This document shows positions 36,621-45,795 of a stretch of 46,328 nt of DNA, piece by piece; the first letter of the stretch is position 1; each line of letters opens with the position of its first letter. The notes below the pieces were generated by a model. That model did no database searches. It saw only the letters and a program-made list of their open reading frames with translations, and was not told where the DNA came from. A program made the translations under genes and the position numbers. The stretch is from positions 1-46,328 of the IMG/VR virus record IMGVR_UViG_3300018481_000032. One strand, 5' to 3'. Source of the DNA: a virus.

Positions 36621-36663
36621 GAGGAGTGCTCTGTAGCCACAACTACAGGGCATTTCTCTTTCG
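36621..36663 (+). terminator. Intrinsic terminator / attenuator
   Basis: A 16-pair stem (36621-36636 with 36643-36658) with three G-U or U-G pairs is followed by CTTTC-type sequence, so the U-tract is weak. The next gene begins about 26 bases on with no promoter between. Confidence 0.65.
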
Positions 36664-36688
36664 CTCACTCAACAGAAGGAATCAAATC

Positions 36689-37306
36689 ATGCTCAAGAAG
36701 ACCATCCAGTACGAGGACTTCAACGGTACGAATCAGACCGAGAACCTCTACTTCAACGTGTCGAAGTCGGAGCTCACCGACCACCTGGAGCTCGTCGACG
36801 AGGTCGAGGGACTGCAGGCGATGATCGAGGGTGAGCCGCGGGAGCTCACGACCGAAGAGGTCCGCAGGCTCCTGGACCTCGTCAAGAAGCTCATCAAGAT
36901 GTCCTACGGCCGGCGCAGCGAGGACGGCTCGCGGTTCCGCAAGAACGACGAGATCTGGGAGGACTTCACTGCCTCAGCAGCGTACGACGCCTTCCTCATG
37001 TCGCTCTTCGAGAACCCCGAGGAGGCAGTGTCGTTCATTGTCGGCATCATGCCTGGGGACCTGATCGAGCAGGCTCAGAAGGAGACGGGTATCCAGCTCG
37101 ATGGACGCCCGGTCGAGACGGTCGAGCTGCCCACGAACAAGGAGCCCAAGGAGCAGTGGGCCTTGCAGAAGAAGGACAACTGGTTCGACTACACCGAAGA
37201 GGAGCTTCTCGGGTGTACTCAGCAGGAGTTCGATGCGGTGTACAACGAGTTCAAGGGTCCCAAGCCCGCGATGCTCGTGACCATCGCGATGAAGCGCAAG
37301 AACTAG
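36689..37306 (+). CDS. Conserved phage protein, chaperone-like pattern
   Basis: This 205-residue protein shows the pattern MLKKTIQYEDFNGTNQTENL, YFNVSKSEL, LVKKLIKMSYGRRSEDGSRF and AYDAFLMSLF ... SFIVGIMPGD. I recognise the family from phages of Gram-positive bacteria, where it has no firm function; the layout resembles some tail assembly chaperones, but here it is far from the tail genes. The start was chosen for AGAAGGAA about 7 bases upstream. It lies behind an attenuator-like terminator. Confidence 0.7.
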   Translation: MLKKTIQYEDFNGTNQTENLYFNVSKSELTDHLELVDEVEGLQAMIEGEPRELTTEEVRRLLDLVKKLIKMSYGRRSEDGSRFRKNDEIWEDFTASAAYDAFLMSLFENPEEAVSFIVGIMPGDLIEQAQKETGIQLDGRPVETVELPTNKEPKEQWALQKKDNWFDYTEEELLGCTQQEFDAVYNEFKGPKPAMLVTIAMKRKN

Positions 37307-38053: not shown

Positions 38054-38088
38054 AAAAGACAGATACCATACGTGGTATTTGTCTTTTT
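38054..38088 (+). terminator. Intrinsic terminator ahead of gene 38109
   Basis: AAAAGACAGATACCA pairs with TGGTATTTGTCTTTT around TACG, with one G-U, and ends in a run of T. The next gene begins 20 bases downstream without a visible promoter. Confidence 0.85.
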
Positions 38089-38108
38089 CCAACAGGATTG
38101 AGGAAATT

Positions 38109-38747
38109 ATGGATAGCGAGTTCCCAGGAAACAGCCGCATCCGAAAGGCTGCGCCGTCCCAGAGGGAGGAGAAGCCGAAGCAGGAGGCGGTAGTCAAGAC
38201 CAATGTCGTCCGCCGTAAGAAGCCCCTGAGCAAGCGCTTCGCCGAGACCTTCGGTGGCGACGCTCGTGGCACGGGCTCGTTTGTGATTATGGACATCCTC
38301 ATGCCGGCTGCCAAGGACATGATCGTCGACGCCTTCACCATGGGCGTTGAGCGAATGGTGTTCGGTGACTCGGCTCCTCGTGGGCGACGTCCAGGTCACA
38401 ACGTGTTCCGGCAGGGCAACATCGGACACACCCGCTACGACCAGCCGTCGTCCATCGGGCGTCGGGATTCCCGTGAGGGGATGAGTCGCCGGGCTCGGAC
38501 CAACTTCGAGTTCGACGAAATCTTGCTGAGCCAGCGAGTCGAGGCCGATGAGGTTCTCGACAGGCTCTTCGGGCTGGTCGACAAGTACGAGGCGGCTACG
38601 GTCGCTGACCTGTACGACATGATCAACGAGGAGCCCAAGTTCACCGACTACAAGTACGGGTGGATCGACCTCGCGGGGTCCCGGGTAGTCCGGGCTCGTG
38701 GAGGCGGGTATCTGCTTGACCTCCCCCGTCCCGAACCACTCGACTAG
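38109..38747 (+). CDS. Conserved phage protein of unknown function
   Basis: This 212-residue protein belongs to a family I recognise from phages of Gram-positive bacteria by its central SFVIMDILMPAAKDMIVDAF (about 58-77) and its C-terminal RVEADEVLDRLFGLVDKYEA, VADLYDMI, YKYGWIDLAGSRVVRARGGG and LDLPRP series. The N-terminal third is Lys/Arg-rich and probably binds nucleic acid or is disordered. The central segment is amphipathic and might contact a membrane. It usually lies near DUF6353-type genes, as here. The start has GAGGAAA upstream. Confidence 0.75.
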   Translation: MDSEFPGNSRIRKAAPSQREEKPKQEAVVKTNVVRRKKPLSKRFAETFGGDARGTGSFVIMDILMPAAKDMIVDAFTMGVERMVFGDSAPRGRRPGHNVFRQGNIGHTRYDQPSSIGRRDSREGMSRRARTNFEFDEILLSQRVEADEVLDRLFGLVDKYEAATVADLYDMINEEPKFTDYKYGWIDLAGSRVVRARGGGYLLDLPRPEPLD

Positions 38748-38774
38748 TTCACCACATCTAACTCAGGAGAAATC

Positions 38775-39668
38775 ATGAAGATCAAGCTTCCCAACGCAGT
38801 GACGCTGAAGGCAGGTCGTACGGCGCTGCTCGTGTCCAAGAACAGCCCGCACCTTCTCTTCGGCGTCGGCGTCGTGGGTGTGGTGGGCACTGTCGTGCTC
38901 GCATGCAGGGCCACCCTCAAGCTCGAAGATGTTCTCAAGGACACACAGAAAGACCTTGTGGACGTCGAGATCAATCGTGTGGGTCGTCCGTACTCCGCTG
39001 GCAGTGTCAAGCGAGAGCAGAGGATCATCAAGGTCCGTGCCGCGGGCAAGGTGGCCGTCTTGTACGCGCCGGCAGTCGTCGTCGGTGGTCTATCCATCGC
39101 AGCTCTGTCCCAGGGTCACCGCATCCAGAGTCAGCGCATCGCTGGTCTGACTGCCGCCTACACCGCGCTCGACAAGGGCTTCACCGAGTACCGCAAGCGG
39201 GTCACGAACGAGTACGGCGAGGAGAAGGAGCGCGAGCTCTACCACGGCGTCTCGTCGGAGACGCAGCGCGAGGTCCTGGCCTCCGGCAAGGTGAAGGAGA
39301 CCACCACCAAGAAGGCCGGCGACGGTGCTCCGTACTCTCGGATCTTCGGGGAGACCAACAAGCACTGGGTCCGGAACCACGAGAAGAACCGGTACTTCCT
39401 GCAGTGTCAGCAGACGTTCCTGAACGATCGTCTGAACGCCTACGGTCACGTGTTCCTCAACGAGGCATACGACATGCTCGGCTTCGAGCGTACCCCCGAG
39501 GGTGTTGTCGTCGGCTGGCTGTGGGACAAGGACTCCCGCTCGGGTGACGGCTTCATCGACCTGGGCATCTTCGAGCCGCCTAACTCCGATGTCCGTGACT
39601 TCTACGCGGGCAAGGACGGGTACGTGCTCGACTTCAACGTGGACGGCACCATCTGGGACAAGATCTAA
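38775..39668 (+). CDS. DUF6353-like membrane protein 2
   Basis: This 297-residue protein has a membrane segment HLLFGVGVVGVVGTVVLACR (about 27-46), a second AVLYAPAVVVGGLSIAALSQ (about 95-114) and then QRIAGLTAAYTALDKGFTEY. A long soluble C-terminal part follows with HEKNRYFLQCQQTFLNDRLN, GHVFLNEAYDMLGFERT and a final VLDFNVDGTIWDKI. This is the DUF6353 layout and parallels the protein at 35484. The function of the family is unknown. The ATG follows TCAGGAGAA. It is tightly linked to the next gene, whose ribosome site overlaps its stop. Confidence 0.75.
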   Translation: MKIKLPNAVTLKAGRTALLVSKNSPHLLFGVGVVGVVGTVVLACRATLKLEDVLKDTQKDLVDVEINRVGRPYSAGSVKREQRIIKVRAAGKVAVLYAPAVVVGGLSIAALSQGHRIQSQRIAGLTAAYTALDKGFTEYRKRVTNEYGEEKERELYHGVSSETQREVLASGKVKETTTKKAGDGAPYSRIFGETNKHWVRNHEKNRYFLQCQQTFLNDRLNAYGHVFLNEAYDMLGFERTPEGVVVGWLWDKDSRSGDGFIDLGIFEPPNSDVRDFYAGKDGYVLDFNVDGTIWDKI

Positions 39669-39677
39669 GGAGGCGTC

Positions 39678-40397
39678 ATGCAGTACACAGATCGAATGAT
39701 TATCGCTGGCGCCTTCTTGGTGTCAGCTGTGTCCGCCACAGGAGGCTTCTTCATCGCGAAGAAGGTTCTTGACGAGAAGTACCAGGCCATCGCTGACGAG
39801 GAGATCGCTCAGGCGAAGGACTTCTACTCTCGTCTGCACAACAAGCCCGACCCCGCAGAGCTGGTCGAGCAGTTCGCATCACCCGTAGTACAGGAGCCCG
39901 TCGGCCAGGCTGTCGACGCGCTCAAGTCCTACGGACACCCGGGGGTCACCTCTCCAGGGGAAGCAGAAGAAGGAGTCGTGGTCAACGTGACGAACGTGTT
40001 CACCGAGGCCGAGACAAACGACACCTGGGATCTCGCAGAGGAGATGAAGAATCGGTCCGAGCAGGCGCCGTACATCATCTCCAACGAGGAGTTCCTCATC
40101 GGCGAGAAGGACTACGAGCAGGAGTCCATGACCTACTACGAGGGTGATGGGGTTCTTGCTGACAGTCGTGACCAGATGGTTCCGGAATCCGACGACAAGG
40201 TCGGGGACCTCAACCTTCAGCGGTTCGGTCATGGGTCCAAGGACAAGAACATGCTCTTCGTCCGCAACGACAAGATGGAGCTCGACTTCGAGATCGCCCT
40301 CAGTGAGGGAGAGTACGCGAAGGAGGTCATGGGGTTCGAGCACTCGGAGGAGCCCCGTCGACGCAAGCCTCGTCGGTCTGAGTGGGCCGATGGGTGA
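39678..40397 (+). CDS. Membrane-anchored acidic protein
   Basis: This 239-residue protein begins with a membrane segment (MIIAGAFLVSAVSATGGFFI, about 7-26) followed by KKVLDEKYQ and a long acidic region. Recognisable segments are YIISNEEFLIGEKDYEQESM (about 133-152) and LADSRDQMVPESDDKVGDLN, which recur in phage proteins encoded after DUF6353 genes. The C-terminus is Arg-rich (RRRKPRRSEW). It is probably anchored in the membrane with a cytoplasmic tail. The ATG follows TAAGGAGGCG; its stop overlaps the next start (GTGA). Confidence 0.75.
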   Translation: MQYTDRMIIAGAFLVSAVSATGGFFIAKKVLDEKYQAIADEEIAQAKDFYSRLHNKPDPAELVEQFASPVVQEPVGQAVDALKSYGHPGVTSPGEAEEGVVVNVTNVFTEAETNDTWDLAEEMKNRSEQAPYIISNEEFLIGEKDYEQESMTYYEGDGVLADSRDQMVPESDDKVGDLNLQRFGHGSKDKNMLFVRNDKMELDFEIALSEGEYAKEVMGFEHSEEPRRRKPRRSEWADG

Positions 40398-40927
40398 ACG
40401 AGCCACTTGACGAGCTCTATCTCAGGTGGCTCTACGCCGGAGTAGCGAACGTCAAGGTCAGAAACCCGTCGCGTACGTATTGGTCGCTGGCCAGGCAGCT
40501 GTATAGCACACAGTTTGTCTGGCTGGTGCCCAATGACGACAACCGGGTGGAGGATGGGAAAGACCTTCGCTACGAATTCATCGACGAGTGTGGGATAGAG
40601 ACCGTAGACGACGATTGGATGTCACTCGAGTGTTCCGTTCTCGAGATGATGATCGCCCTTTCACGTCATCTCACCTTCGAAGCTGAGGGTGAGCCGAGAG
40701 GGTGGTTCTGGCGTCTGATCGAGAATCTGGATCTCGAAGAGTGGACTGACGCCCGCTACAACACGAGAGTCCACGAAGAGGTGGCGGACAAGTTGCAGAA
40801 GCTTGTCTACCGTCTTTACATGCCTGATGGCCGCGGGGGGCTCTTTCCGTTGGAGCATCCATCAGAGAACCAAAGAGAGGTGGAGATCTGGTACCAGCTC
40901 AATGCCTACCTCATAGAGAACGAATGA
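40394..40927 (+). CDS. Conserved phage protein of unknown function
   Basis: This 177-residue soluble protein starts at GTG overlapping the previous stop. It has LYLRWLYAGVANVKV, YWSLARQLYSTQFVWLVPND, DNRVEDGKDLRYEFIDECG and SVLEMMIALSRHL, a pattern I know from phages of Gram-positive bacteria, always near replication genes and never with a stated function. It lies between the membrane cluster and the polymerase fusion, 16 bases ahead of the latter. Confidence 0.75.
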   Translation: MNEPLDELYLRWLYAGVANVKVRNPSRTYWSLARQLYSTQFVWLVPNDDNRVEDGKDLRYEFIDECGIETVDDDWMSLECSVLEMMIALSRHLTFEAEGEPRGWFWRLIENLDLEEWTDARYNTRVHEEVADKLQKLVYRLYMPDGRGGLFPLEHPSENQREVEIWYQLNAYLIENE

Positions 40928-40943
40928 TGAACGGGGAGGGTAG

Positions 40944-43900
40944 ATGGATTTCTATAGGATTAGTACCAAAGAGATCGAGAACGGTCCCCGTAAGGGTGAG
41001 CTTGAGCTCTACCCCGACTTCATCGTCGGCCGAACAACGGACCTCATGGTTCGCGGCCGGAGCTTCTATGCGGTATGGGATCAAGAGAAGGGCCTGTGGT
41101 CTACGGACGAGTACGACGTTCAGCGTCTCGTGGACGAGGACCTGCACCGGTACGCCGACGAGAAGAAGGCGGCCACCGGCATCCAGTACAAGATCAAGGA
41201 CCTCCGCTCATTCAGCTCACAGGGATGGGTGCAGTTCCGGAAGTACGTCCAGAACATCAGTGACAACAGTCACCCGCTGGACGAGACTCTCACTTTCGCG
41301 AACACGGAGGTCAAGAAGTCTGACTACGTAAGCAAGCGCCTGCCGTACTCTCTCGCGCCTGGAAAGATCGACGCCTGGGATGAGCTGGTAGGGACGCTGT
41401 ACTCCGTAGAGGAGCGTGCCAAGATCGAGTGGGCCATCGGAGCAATCGTCTCCGGTGACTCCAAGAAGATCCAGAAGTTCTTGGTGTTCTACGGTCCTCA
41501 GGGTACGGGTAAGTCCACGATTCTGGATGTGGTGGAGAAGCTGTTCACCGGCTACACCACCACATTCGACGCGAAGGCTCTTGGTAGTGGAGGCAGCGAC
41601 TTCGCAACCGAGGTGTTCAAGCACGGCCCGCTCGTTGCAATCCAGCACGACGGTGACCTGTCGAGAATCATGGACAACACCAAGCTCAACTCGATCATCT
41701 CACACGAGATGATGCCCATGAATGAGAAGTACAAGCCCACGTTCAGCGATCGGGTGAAGGCCTTCCTCCTCATGGGTACGAACCAACCAGTGAAAATCTC
41801 TGACGCCAAGTCGGGGATCATTCGAAGGCTGATCGACGTCCACCCCACGGGCGTGATCATCCCGACCAACCACTACAACACCCTCGTGGCTCAGGTTGAT
41901 TTCGAGCTCGGTGCAATCGCGCACCACTGTCTGCAGGTGTACCTCGACCTGGGAAAGAATTACTACAACGGTTACAAGCCTCTCGAGATGATGCTTCAGA
42001 CCGACGTGTTCTTCAACTACATCGAGGCCCACTTCGACGTGTTCAAGGAGCAGGACACAACAACTCTGCGGCAGGCATACGCCCTGTACAAGGAGTACTG
42101 CTCTGACACAGGCATCGAGAAGGTGTTGCCGCAGTACAAGGTGCGTGAGGAACTGCGGAATTACTTCGATCACTTCCACGAGCGGCACGAGGTCGACGGC
42201 GAGCAGTTGAGAAGCGTGTACGTAGGCTTCAACGCTAGCAAGTTCAAGACCGAGTCCAAGAAGGACAAGACCTTCAGCTTGGTGATCGAAGAGACAGAGT
42301 CTCTGCTAGACGAGGTGCTTGCTGAGCAGCCGGCTCAGTACTCCTCCACGGCAGAGACTCCTAAGGTTTCATGGGCGAATTGCAAGACCACGCTTGCGGA
42401 CATCGACACGTCCAAGTTGCACTTCGTCAAGGTACCCGAGCAGCACATCGTGATCGACTTCGATCTGAAGGATGAGGGGGGTGTCAAGTCTCTTGAACGA
42501 AATCTGGAAGCGGCTTCTGTATGGCCGGCCACTTACGCTGAGCTCAGCAAGGGCGGCTCGGGTATACACCTTCATTACGACTATGAAGGAGACGTCACCC
42601 AACTTGCGTCAAGCTACGCTAATGGAATTGAGGTCAAGACGCTCCTTGGTGACTCTAGTCTACGACGACGGGTCACGAAGTGTAATCACGTTCCGGTGGC
42701 GCGACTTACCGGAGGACTGCCACTGAAGGAGAAGAAGATGCTATCAGTTCAGAAGATCCAGAGTGAGAAGGGTCTTCGCGACCTGATCAAGCGGAACCTT
42801 CAGAAGGAGTTCCACTCGGGAACCAAGCCGTCCGTGGACTTCATCAAGAAGATCCTGGACGATGCGTACGAGTCAGGTATGCAATACGACCTGACAGACA
42901 TGCGCAGCACCATCGTCGCCTTCGCCAACAACAGCACGAACCAGCCTTTGCAGGCCTTGAAGGTAGTCCAGCACATGCGTTTCAAGGGTGTCGACATTGT
43001 CGACCTTGTAAAGGATGCCAAGGACGATCGGCTCGTCTTCTTCGATGTGGAGGTTTACCCGAACCTCTTCGTCATCTGCTGGAAGTACGCCGGCGACGCT
43101 GAGTACGTACGGATGATCAACCCCACATCACAGGAAGTCGAGGGGTTGTTTGGTTTCAAACTGGTGGGGTTCAACTGCCGCCGGTACGACAACCACATCC
43201 TTTGGGGTGCATTCATGGGCTACGACAACCAGCAGTTGTACGAGCTCAGCCAGAAGATCATCGCCAACAACCGGAATGCGATGTTCGGAGAGGCCTACAA
43301 CCTCAGCTATGCCGACATCTACGACTTCAGTTCGGTCAAGCAGTCGCTGAAGTTGTTCCAGATCCAACTGGGCATCCCGCACAAGGAGCTAGACCTCCCG
43401 TGGGATGAGCCGGTCAAGGACGAGGACATCCCTCGTGTGGTGGACTACTGCTGCAACGACGTCGGCTCTACTGAGGTGACGTTCAACGCACGCAAGCAGG
43501 ACTTCATCGCACGGCAGATCCTTGCCGAGCTGAGTGGTCTGTCTGTGAACGACACCACTCAGCGTCACACAGCGAAGATCATCTTCGGGAACGATCGCAA
43601 CCCGCAGGCGAGCTTCAAGTACACGCATCTTGACAAGGAGTTCCCTGGCTATGAGTTCAAGCTCGGGAAGAGCTACTACCGTGACGAGATCGTGGGCGAG
43701 GGTGGCTACGTGTATGCCGAACCAGGCATGTACGAGGATGTCGTGGAACTTGACATCGCATCCATGCACCCCACATCAATCGAGCAGCTCAATCTCTTCG
43801 GCGAGTACACCCCCAACTTCTCAGCGCTGAAGAACGCTCGAATCGCCATCAAGCACAATGACTACGACGAGGCCCGAAAGATGCTGGGTGGAAAGCTCGC

Positions 43901-44723
43901 CCCGTTCCTCGAGGACCCCGCACAGGCTGACGCTCTGTCTTACGCACTCAAGATCGTGATCAACATCGTCTACGGTCTTACGTCAGCCAAGTTCGACAAC
44001 GCGTTCCGTGACATTCGCAACATGGACAACATCGTCGCGAAGCGTGGAGCCTTGTTCATGATCGATCTGAAGCACGCTGTTCAGGAGCAGGGTTACAAGG
44101 TGGTGCACATCAAGACGGACTCGATCAAGATCCCGGGAGCCACTCAGGAGATCATCGACTTCGTCAAAGACTATGGACAGAAGTACGGATACGACTTCGA
44201 GCTCGATGCGAACTACGAGAAGTTCTGTCTCGTCAACGACGCGGTGTACATCGCCAGAAAGAGTTGGCCAAACGACGGAAACGCTCACATCATCGCCCAC
44301 AAGGACCGATGGACCGCAGTGGGTGCTCAGTTCGCACACCCGTATGTCTACAAGACACTGTTCACGGGTGAGTCCATCACGTTCGATGACCTGTGTGAGA
44401 CGAAGCAGGTCATGCAGGGGGCTATGTACCTGCACTTCGAGCACACCCGTCCGGCAGTCCTCCAGCAGGAGGGCATGATCTTCGTCGGGCGTACTGGTCG
44501 ATTTGTCCCTGTGGAAGAGGGGCAGTGTGGAGCGATGCTCTGGCGTATCAAGGACGGTAAGCACTACGCCGTCACTGGTACGAAGGGGTACCTCTGGCTG
44601 GAGGCAGAGATGGCAGCGTCCATCCCAGACCTCAAGATCGACATGAGCTACTACGAACGCCTTGTAGATGAGGCGCGCAAGACCATCGAGAAGTTCGGAA
44701 ACTTCGACACGTTTGTGAGGTAA
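40944..44723 (+). CDS. SF3 helicase-primase-family B DNA polymerase fusion
   Basis: This 1259-residue protein combines replisome modules. SF3/D5-like helicase: Walker A GPQGTGKST (184-192), AIQHDGD (232-238), sensor segment AFLLMGTNQP (273-282) and GIIRRLIDVHP (291-301). A primase-like segment: IDFDLKD (504-510), SGSGIHLHY (538-545) and IEVK (562-565). Proofreading exonuclease: FDVEVYP (700-706), NCRRYDN (744-750) and YCCND (835-839). Polymerase palm: motif A DIASMHPTS (937-945), motif B KIVINIVYG (1003-1011) and motif C KTDS (1057-1060). It would unwind, prime, copy and proofread DNA. The ATG follows GGGGAGGG. An internal ATG at 42738 with its own ribosome site could give polymerase alone. 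Confidence 0.85.
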   Translation: MDFYRISTKEIENGPRKGELELYPDFIVGRTTDLMVRGRSFYAVWDQEKGLWSTDEYDVQRLVDEDLHRYADEKKAATGIQYKIKDLRSFSSQGWVQFRKYVQNISDNSHPLDETLTFANTEVKKSDYVSKRLPYSLAPGKIDAWDELVGTLYSVEERAKIEWAIGAIVSGDSKKIQKFLVFYGPQGTGKSTILDVVEKLFTGYTTTFDAKALGSGGSDFATEVFKHGPLVAIQHDGDLSRIMDNTKLNSIISHEMMPMNEKYKPTFSDRVKAFLLMGTNQPVKISDAKSGIIRRLIDVHPTGVIIPTNHYNTLVAQVDFELGAIAHHCLQVYLDLGKNYYNGYKPLEMMLQTDVFFNYIEAHFDVFKEQDTTTLRQAYALYKEYCSDTGIEKVLPQYKVREELRNYFDHFHERHEVDGEQLRSVYVGFNASKFKTESKKDKTFSLVIEETESLLDEVLAEQPAQYSSTAETPKVSWANCKTTLADIDTSKLHFVKVPEQHIVIDFDLKDEGGVKSLERNLEAASVWPATYAELSKGGSGIHLHYDYEGDVTQLASSYANGIEVKTLLGDSSLRRRVTKCNHVPVARLTGGLPLKEKKMLSVQKIQSEKGLRDLIKRNLQKEFHSGTKPSVDFIKKILDDAYESGMQYDLTDMRSTIVAFANNSTNQPLQALKVVQHMRFKGVDIVDLVKDAKDDRLVFFDVEVYPNLFVICWKYAGDAEYVRMINPTSQEVEGLFGFKLVGFNCRRYDNHILWGAFMGYDNQQLYELSQKIIANNRNAMFGEAYNLSYADIYDFSSVKQSLKLFQIQLGIPHKELDLPWDEPVKDEDIPRVVDYCCNDVGSTEVTFNARKQDFIARQILAELSGLSVNDTTQRHTAKIIFGNDRNPQASFKYTHLDKEFPGYEFKLGKSYYRDEIVGEGGYVYAEPGMYEDVVELDIASMHPTSIEQLNLFGEYTPNFSALKNARIAIKHNDYDEARKMLGGKLAPFLEDPAQADALSYALKIVINIVYGLTSAKFDNAFRDIRNMDNIVAKRGALFMIDLKHAVQEQGYKVVHIKTDSIKIPGATQEIIDFVKDYGQKYGYDFELDANYEKFCLVNDAVYIARKSWPNDGNAHIIAHKDRWTAVGAQFAHPYVYKTLFTGESITFDDLCETKQVMQGAMYLHFEHTRPAVLQQEGMIFVGRTGRFVPVEEGQCGAMLWRIKDGKHYAVTGTKGYLWLEAEMAASIPDLKIDMSYYERLVDEARKTIEKFGNFDTFVR

Positions 44724-45071: not shown

Positions 45072-45289
45072 CCAAGGAGAACGTCGATCAGGTCGTTGCG
45101 TGGTGCGATGGAACCCCCATCGAGGAGACCGACGCCCTCGACTCCGAGAAACGCTATGTGGGAATCAACATCCCATCGTGGGGCGGTGTGGTCCGAGCCA
45201 GCGAAGGCGACTTCGTCATCAAGGATCACCTCGGCGAGTTCCACACCCGGTGGCCGCAGCACTTCAACAACATGTTCGTGAAGGAGTAA
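45005..45289 (+). CDS. Conserved phage protein, YRKKP/PGDYV-like family
   Basis: This 94-residue protein is a paralogue of the gene at 95. It shows FDAIEAIQLTKENVDQVVAW, CDG, INIPSWGGVVRASEGDFVIK and GEFHTRWPQHFNNMF, the classic order of the small phage family with EAVQW, W-C-G, PGDYVIKG and GEFYPC-like segments. The function is unknown. GTG 45005 is preferred because GGGAGG lies four bases upstream; the upstream GTG at 44993 precedes that site. It is followed two bases later by the SSB gene. Confidence 0.75.
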   Translation: MERYKRKNTDGQRFDAIEAIQLTKENVDQVVAWCDGTPIEETDALDSEKRYVGINIPSWGGVVRASEGDFVIKDHLGEFHTRWPQHFNNMFVKE

Positions 45290-45291
45290 CT

Positions 45292-45795
45292 ATGCTACAG
45301 GACAACGAACTCCTCATCGAGGACGCCCGCCTGCTCTTCCGCAACTTCGCCGGCAAGGAGCAGCAGTACAACAGCGAGGGGGATCGCAACTTCAGCGTCG
45401 TCTTCAACAAGGACCAGGCGGACAAGCTCCTTGCTGAGGGGTGGAACGTCAAGGCCCTCAAGGCCCGGGATGATGAGGAGCCCGACTACCACATGACCGT
45501 CAAGGTCAACTACGGCAAGGGTCGACCGCCGCAGTGCATCATGATCACGTCGCGTGGGCGCTCCGACCTAGGGGCTGACGAGATCGAGATCTTCGACTGG
45601 GCTGACATCAAGAACGTCGACCTGATCGTGAGGGCCTACGACTGGGAGGTCAACGGCAACAAGGGCCGCAAGGCCTACCTCAAGAAGATCTACGTCACCA
45701 TCAACGAGGACGATCTCGACCGCAAATACGCAGGGCTCACGCCGGCGGACAGCGAGTCCATCCTCGACGACGAGCCGGAGGAGGTGACGGTATGA
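45292..45795 (+). CDS. Single-stranded DNA-binding protein (phage SSB family)
   Basis: This 167-residue protein matches the phage SSB-like family by its start LLIEDARLLFRNFAGKEQQY, RNFSVVFNKDQADKLLAEGW, YHMTVKVNYGKGRPPQCIMI, DLIVRAYDWEVNGNKGRKAY and LKKIYVTI, followed by an acidic C-terminal tail (ADSESILDDEPEEV). This is an OB-fold with the acidic tip used to recruit partners. It would coat single-stranded DNA made by the helicase-polymerase encoded just upstream. The ATG follows AAGGAGTAAC. The gene overlaps the next by four bases. Confidence 0.85.
   Translation: MLQDNELLIEDARLLFRNFAGKEQQYNSEGDRNFSVVFNKDQADKLLAEGWNVKALKARDDEEPDYHMTVKVNYGKGRPPQCIMITSRGRSDLGADEIEIFDWADIKNVDLIVRAYDWEVNGNKGRKAYLKKIYVTINEDDLDRKYAGLTPADSESILDDEPEEVTV

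Follow-up and report, generated by a model that had tools for sequence, protein, structure and literature searches.

A HelPrimPolB/GP55-type replicase predicted in the DNA of an actinophage-like virus, with helicase, primase, exonuclease and family B polymerase modules in one chain

Can a single phage polypeptide carry the modules that unwind, prime, copy and proofread DNA, and would such a chain represent an architecture not described before? This question is raised by one gene in a viral DNA of 46,328 nucleotides (IMG/VR record IMGVR_UViG_3300018481_000032, positions 1 to 46,328; hereafter the window). A preliminary description of the sequence had proposed that this gene encodes an SF3 helicase, a primase-like segment, a proofreading exonuclease and a family B polymerase (PolB), in an architecture that it could not assign to an established family. 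Profiles, structural models and an alignment with GP55 of the lactococcal phage 1706 show that the four assignments were right, that of the archaeo-eukaryotic-type primase (AEP) included. The architecture, on the other hand, is already known. Kazlauskas et al. (2020) gave the name HelPrimPolB to a PolB group in which an SF3 helicase and a PrimPol are located N-terminal to PolB, and according to these authors the arrangement had been shown earlier in their 2016 paper (PMC7544198). Zhang et al. (2025) then purified GP55 and showed that it acts as one chain with UTP/dTTP-dependent helicase, RNA primase, polymerase and 3′-5′ exonuclease activities, each of which is abolished by mutating or deleting the matching part; more than 1000 GP55 homologues are reported (NAR gkaf542, PMC12205980).

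The open reading frame extends from 40944 to 44723 on the + strand, as do all other features of the window described below. It starts with an ATG and encodes 1259 amino acids without an internal stop. The purine-rich, Shine-Dalgarno-like sequence GGGGAGGG (40933..40940) ends 3 bases 5′ of this ATG. The composition at third codon positions resembles that of coding DNA (GC3 0.77, GC2 0.34). When the window was shuffled 100 times, the longest run without a stop comprised 353 codons. The match to PHROG 4210, another name under which the family was already recorded, covers residues 1 to 1258 with 2006 bits, and the protein aligns end to end with GP55. These data identify an intact gene of the HelPrimPolB type.

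A fusion of this size could nevertheless be an artefact, in which separate genes are joined because a stop or a frameshift has been lost through sequencing error. Replicases in pieces do occur, in the Bifidobacterium phage BitterVaud1 and in one metagenomic contig, but nothing of this kind is seen in the window. The search for the same domain order in other phages, which the preliminary description had proposed as a check, found 252 annotated phage records in which the fusion covers 80% or more of the chain, so that a sequencing error does not account for it. Relatives are also encoded in at least 567 IMG/VR stretches. We aligned 100 full-length sequences, the window protein and 99 relatives with identities down to 36%; the reading frame is unbroken in all 99, and the catalytic residues named below for each module are invariant, which rules out chance motifs. 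Furthermore, GP55 was expressed as a single active chain. The widespread, unbroken fusion together with the invariant residues indicates that the fusion is under selection, and we regard the artefact as next to impossible.

In BitterVaud1 (L016:3950-8580), the gene is split into two reading frames just before polymerase motif A, and the intervening frame of 213 amino acids has no PHROG or Pfam match. An Rfam search gave no match at this split and none in the window. Either an intron or a mobile insertion could have produced the split, or the polymerase could naturally consist of two chains. In the metagenomic relative (L011:2755-6470), the replicase frame is in three pieces, perhaps through sequencing error or decay.

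The motifs from which the preliminary description had started were placed correctly along the chain (G184-T192, I504-D510, D701/E703, D749, Y835-D839, D937, K1003-G1011 and K1057-S1060). Residues 1 to 450 (40944..42293) were assigned to the SF3 helicase by Pfam, TIGR, PHROG and PDB profile matches. DUF5906 scored above the Pfam cut-off, TIGR01613 remained below its own cut-off, and several PHROG primase-helicases were matched. The profile search of solved chains retrieved 7ola and 6k9c/6k9e, all of them named primase; 6k9c is, we assume, the helicase part of the NrS-1 PrimPol. All the expected SF3 elements are present: the Walker A motif GPQGTGKST (184-192; 41493..41519), whose K190 corresponds to K189 of GP55, the Walker B region PLVAIQHDGD (229-238; 41628..41657) with D236, and the segment from sensor 1 (N280) to the arginine finger region (R294/R295; 41781..41828). 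K190, D236, N280, R294 and R295 are invariant in the 100 sequences. As judged from its sequence, this part is a predicted SF3 helicase. A second, partial copy of such a helicase was observed in the Streptomyces phage SendItCS, where gp51 (L013:3977-4474; 165 amino acids, annotated ‘DNA primase/polymerase’), encoded upstream of the full-length replicase, is 28% identical to residues 142 to 342.

The next segment, residues 455 to 595 (42306..42728), is the weakest module by sequence. It matched AEP families only weakly (PHROG 695, E 0.002; PHROG 3022, E 0.003), and the PDB sequence-profile search with the segment comprising it and the following helical part gave only chance matches, so that the AEP was missed by this search alone. 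Because the sequence match was weak, the segment was modelled with AlphaFold (pLDDT mostly above 90). Among solved structures, the NrS-1 phage PrimPol (12% identity) matched the model best, with Z 9.8 and an rmsd of 3.4 over 135 aligned residues and with a Foldseek E of 1.2e-5; the PrimPol of pRN1 ORF904 was also among the best matches. The AEP-like fold that the preliminary description had wanted to see in residues 470 to 600 is thus confirmed in the model as a PriS/PrimPol-like domain. Motif I is IDFD (504-507; 42453..42464), in which D507 corresponds to GP55 D509. Motif II is SKGGSGIHLHY (535-545; 42546..42578); it had been found at the right place, and its letters read GGSGIHLHY and not SGSGIHLHY as first given. 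Motif III is EVK (563-565; 42630..42638). D505, D507, H542, H544, E563 and K565 are invariant.

The low sequence scores and the lack of a PDB profile match would suit a decayed or structural AEP relic, with another protein in charge of priming. However, D505, D507, H542 and E563 have been kept in all 100 sequences, the fold was recovered by structure comparison, and the AEP is the part of the protein closest to GP55 (52% identity). In GP55 itself, the D509A mutation showed that this domain is crucial for RNA primer synthesis (PMC12205980). A relic is, in our judgment, very unlikely, and we keep to an AEP domain that would be active in priming.

Residues 596 to 695 (42729..43028) form four helices in the AlphaFold model and correspond, according to the model and the alignment, to the helical domain aHD of GP55, which is essential for its primase (PMC12205980). 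Y648 and F660 are identical to the aligned GP55 residues Y655 and F667. Structure comparison of this segment, taken from the larger model, gave no convincing relative.

The remaining part of the protein, residues 696 to 1259, was modelled with a pLDDT of 89.5, and its comparison with solved PolBs gave Z values up to 16.7, with Pol alpha, KOD and E. coli Pol II among the matches. The PolB fold spans both the 3′-5′ exonuclease (696-870; 43029..43553), which is also covered by PHROG 1252 (residues 681-890), and the palm, fingers and thumb of the polymerase (871-1259; 43554..44720), which the E. coli Pol II profile matches with an E value of 3.9e-7. In the exonuclease, sequence and alignment locate Exo I FDVEV (700-704; 43041..43055), with D701/E703 equivalent to GP55 D712/E714, Exo II YDN (748-750; 43185..43193) and Exo III YCCND (835-839; 43446..43460). 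In the polymerase, motif A is DIASMHPTS (937-945; 43752..43778), with D937 equivalent to GP55 D949, motif B is KIVINIVYG (1003-1011; 43950..43976) and motif C is KTDS (1057-1060; 44112..44123). D701, E703, D749, D839, D937, N1007, Y1010, K1057 and D1059 are invariant among the 100 sequences; K1003 is found in 98 of them and is replaced by R in the other two. The model describes what is, by prediction, a complete family B polymerase with its exonuclease.

Two features of this polymerase had been considered unusual. The first was a compact palm, with 66 residues between motifs A and B. This value lies within the family range of 62 to 76 (73 in GP55), and the part that starts before motif A and ends at motif C takes 144 profile positions where E. 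coli Pol II has 151 residues, i.e. about 7 fewer; both measurements rule out an exceptional compaction. The second was the Lys at the place of the first Asp of motif C. The substitution is indeed there, but it is a trait of the family and not a peculiarity of the window: GP55 carries the same KTDS, in the context HVKTDSFKLP. Since GP55 is active, an inactive polymerase owing to KTDS is ruled out. Among the 80 relatives gathered in IMG/VR for the alignment, the invariance of K1057 is partly a selection effect because one of the two scan patterns, KTDS[IV]K[IV]P, contained the motif; K1057 was likewise invariant in 21 sequences gathered without this pattern.

The absence of the first Asp recalls the archaeal polymerases B2 and G2, which also lack it, and B2 performs translesion synthesis (PMC7544198). 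A repair or translesion polymerase, not the main replicase, might be supposed by comparison with archaeal PolB2. We consider this extremely unlikely: B2 and G2 have no Exo III, whereas all the exonuclease motifs of the window protein are intact, and GP55, with the same KTDS, polymerizes efficiently, has an exonuclease and copies M13 DNA de novo (PMC12205980). With regard to de novo synthesis of the piPolB type from the PolB site, PolB is preceded in the window protein by an AEP domain whose catalytic residues are intact, and GP55 deprived of its primase function no longer synthesizes de novo (PMC12205980).

Taken together, the protein almost certainly serves an actinophage-like tailed phage as its main DNA replicase and belongs to the HelPrimPolB/GP55 family. 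The N-terminal SF3 helicase would unwind the duplex and displace the strand, the AEP and the helical domain that follows would synthesize short RNA primers for extension by the C-terminal family B polymerase, and the exonuclease would proofread the product. The activities, nucleotide preference, primer site and formation of dimers, which GP55 also forms (PMC12205980), are only expected by analogy with that protein. The UTP/dTTP preference and the CCAAC primer site need not transfer from GP55 because identity in the helicase is as low as 30%.

The proposal of a single chain for unwinding, priming and copying thus agrees with what was measured for GP55, but the term ‘minimal replisome’ is too strong, for two reasons: relatives also encode a further helicase, nucleases and an ssDNA annealing/binding protein nearby, and the window, possibly a fragment, may not show all of the replication genes. 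Downstream of the replicase, the window encodes an ssDNA-binding/annealing protein (45289..45795; PF24083, 1.1e-58; PHROG 4787), present in 79 of the 82 eligible related loci. Immediately upstream, a block of four genes (38079..40927) is conserved, with each gene retained at about 90-95% of the related loci: a PHROG 4079 gene (38079-38747; 72 of 76 eligible loci), a gene for a DUF6353 protein (38775-39668; 75 of 80), a PHROG 4695 gene (39678-40397; 72 of 81) and a PHROG 4678 gene (40382-40927; 81 of 85). The PHROG 4695 product has an N-terminal hydrophobic segment, and in ReqiPoco6 the annotation describes the counterparts gp069/gp070 as membrane and periplasmic proteins. From the gene order, one may imagine the replicase in a membrane-linked complex, with the DUF6353, PHROG 4695 and PHROG 4678 products as possible replication partners; we consider this improbable. 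These conserved upstream genes are the less explored part of the locus. The product of another gene (36626-37306) is classed by Pfam as a phage tail assembly chaperone (PF23803, 4.7e-40), although the replicase follows only a few genes further on; its PHROG family, 4282, carries no functional annotation.

The combination of unwinding, priming, copying and proofreading in one chain is of interest for understanding how replication can be made compact and for tools that amplify DNA; it was established in 2025 for GP55. The window adds one member of the actinophage type. The residues needed in GP55 are kept in distant relatives, and the GP55 results therefore probably apply to many actinobacterial phage proteins annotated ‘DNA primase/polymerase’, the common annotation of the actinophage relatives.

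How the window protein compares with known systems can be summarized as follows. The free-standing PolBs of Septimatrevirus phage 73 and Efquatrovirus MSF2 are distantly homologous in the exonuclease (22-28% identity), and in MSF2 also in the palm. Unlike the window protein they are unfused; MSF2 encodes a primase/polymerase in a gene of its own, and one gene of phage 73 is annotated as processivity factor. The NrS-1 PrimPol shares the AEP fold, but its AEP is N-terminal, its helicase C-terminal and a PolB module is absent, whereas in the window protein the helicase precedes the AEP and PolB follows. The helix-bundle domain of NrS-1 is unrelated to the aHD of GP55 (PMC12205980). Much closer are gp072 of the Rhodococcus phages ReqiPoco6 and ReqiPepy6 and the ‘DNA primase/polymerase’ proteins of Gordonia, Arthrobacter and Streptomyces phages, with about 54-65% identity over nearly the whole chain; they differ from the window protein by sequence divergence only, and in ReqiPoco6 and RosaAsantewaa the upstream neighbours are the same as in the window. 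GP55 has the same order of SF3 helicase, AEP, helical domain and PolB, and its K189, D509, Y655, F667, D712, E714 and D949 are all identical in the window protein (K190, D507, Y648, F660, D701, E703 and D937). It differs in length (1317 versus 1259 amino acids), in host group and in sequence, the identity beyond the helicase and AEP parts being 34% in the aHD, 45% in the exonuclease and 47% in the polymerase. Finally, we detected no difference from HelPrimPolB as described (PMC7544198): the order of the fusion is the same, the Exo I-III and Pol A-C residues D701, E703, D749, D839, D937, K1003 and D1059 are conserved, and motif C is divergent in both. The window protein is a further member of this known and biochemically characterized family.
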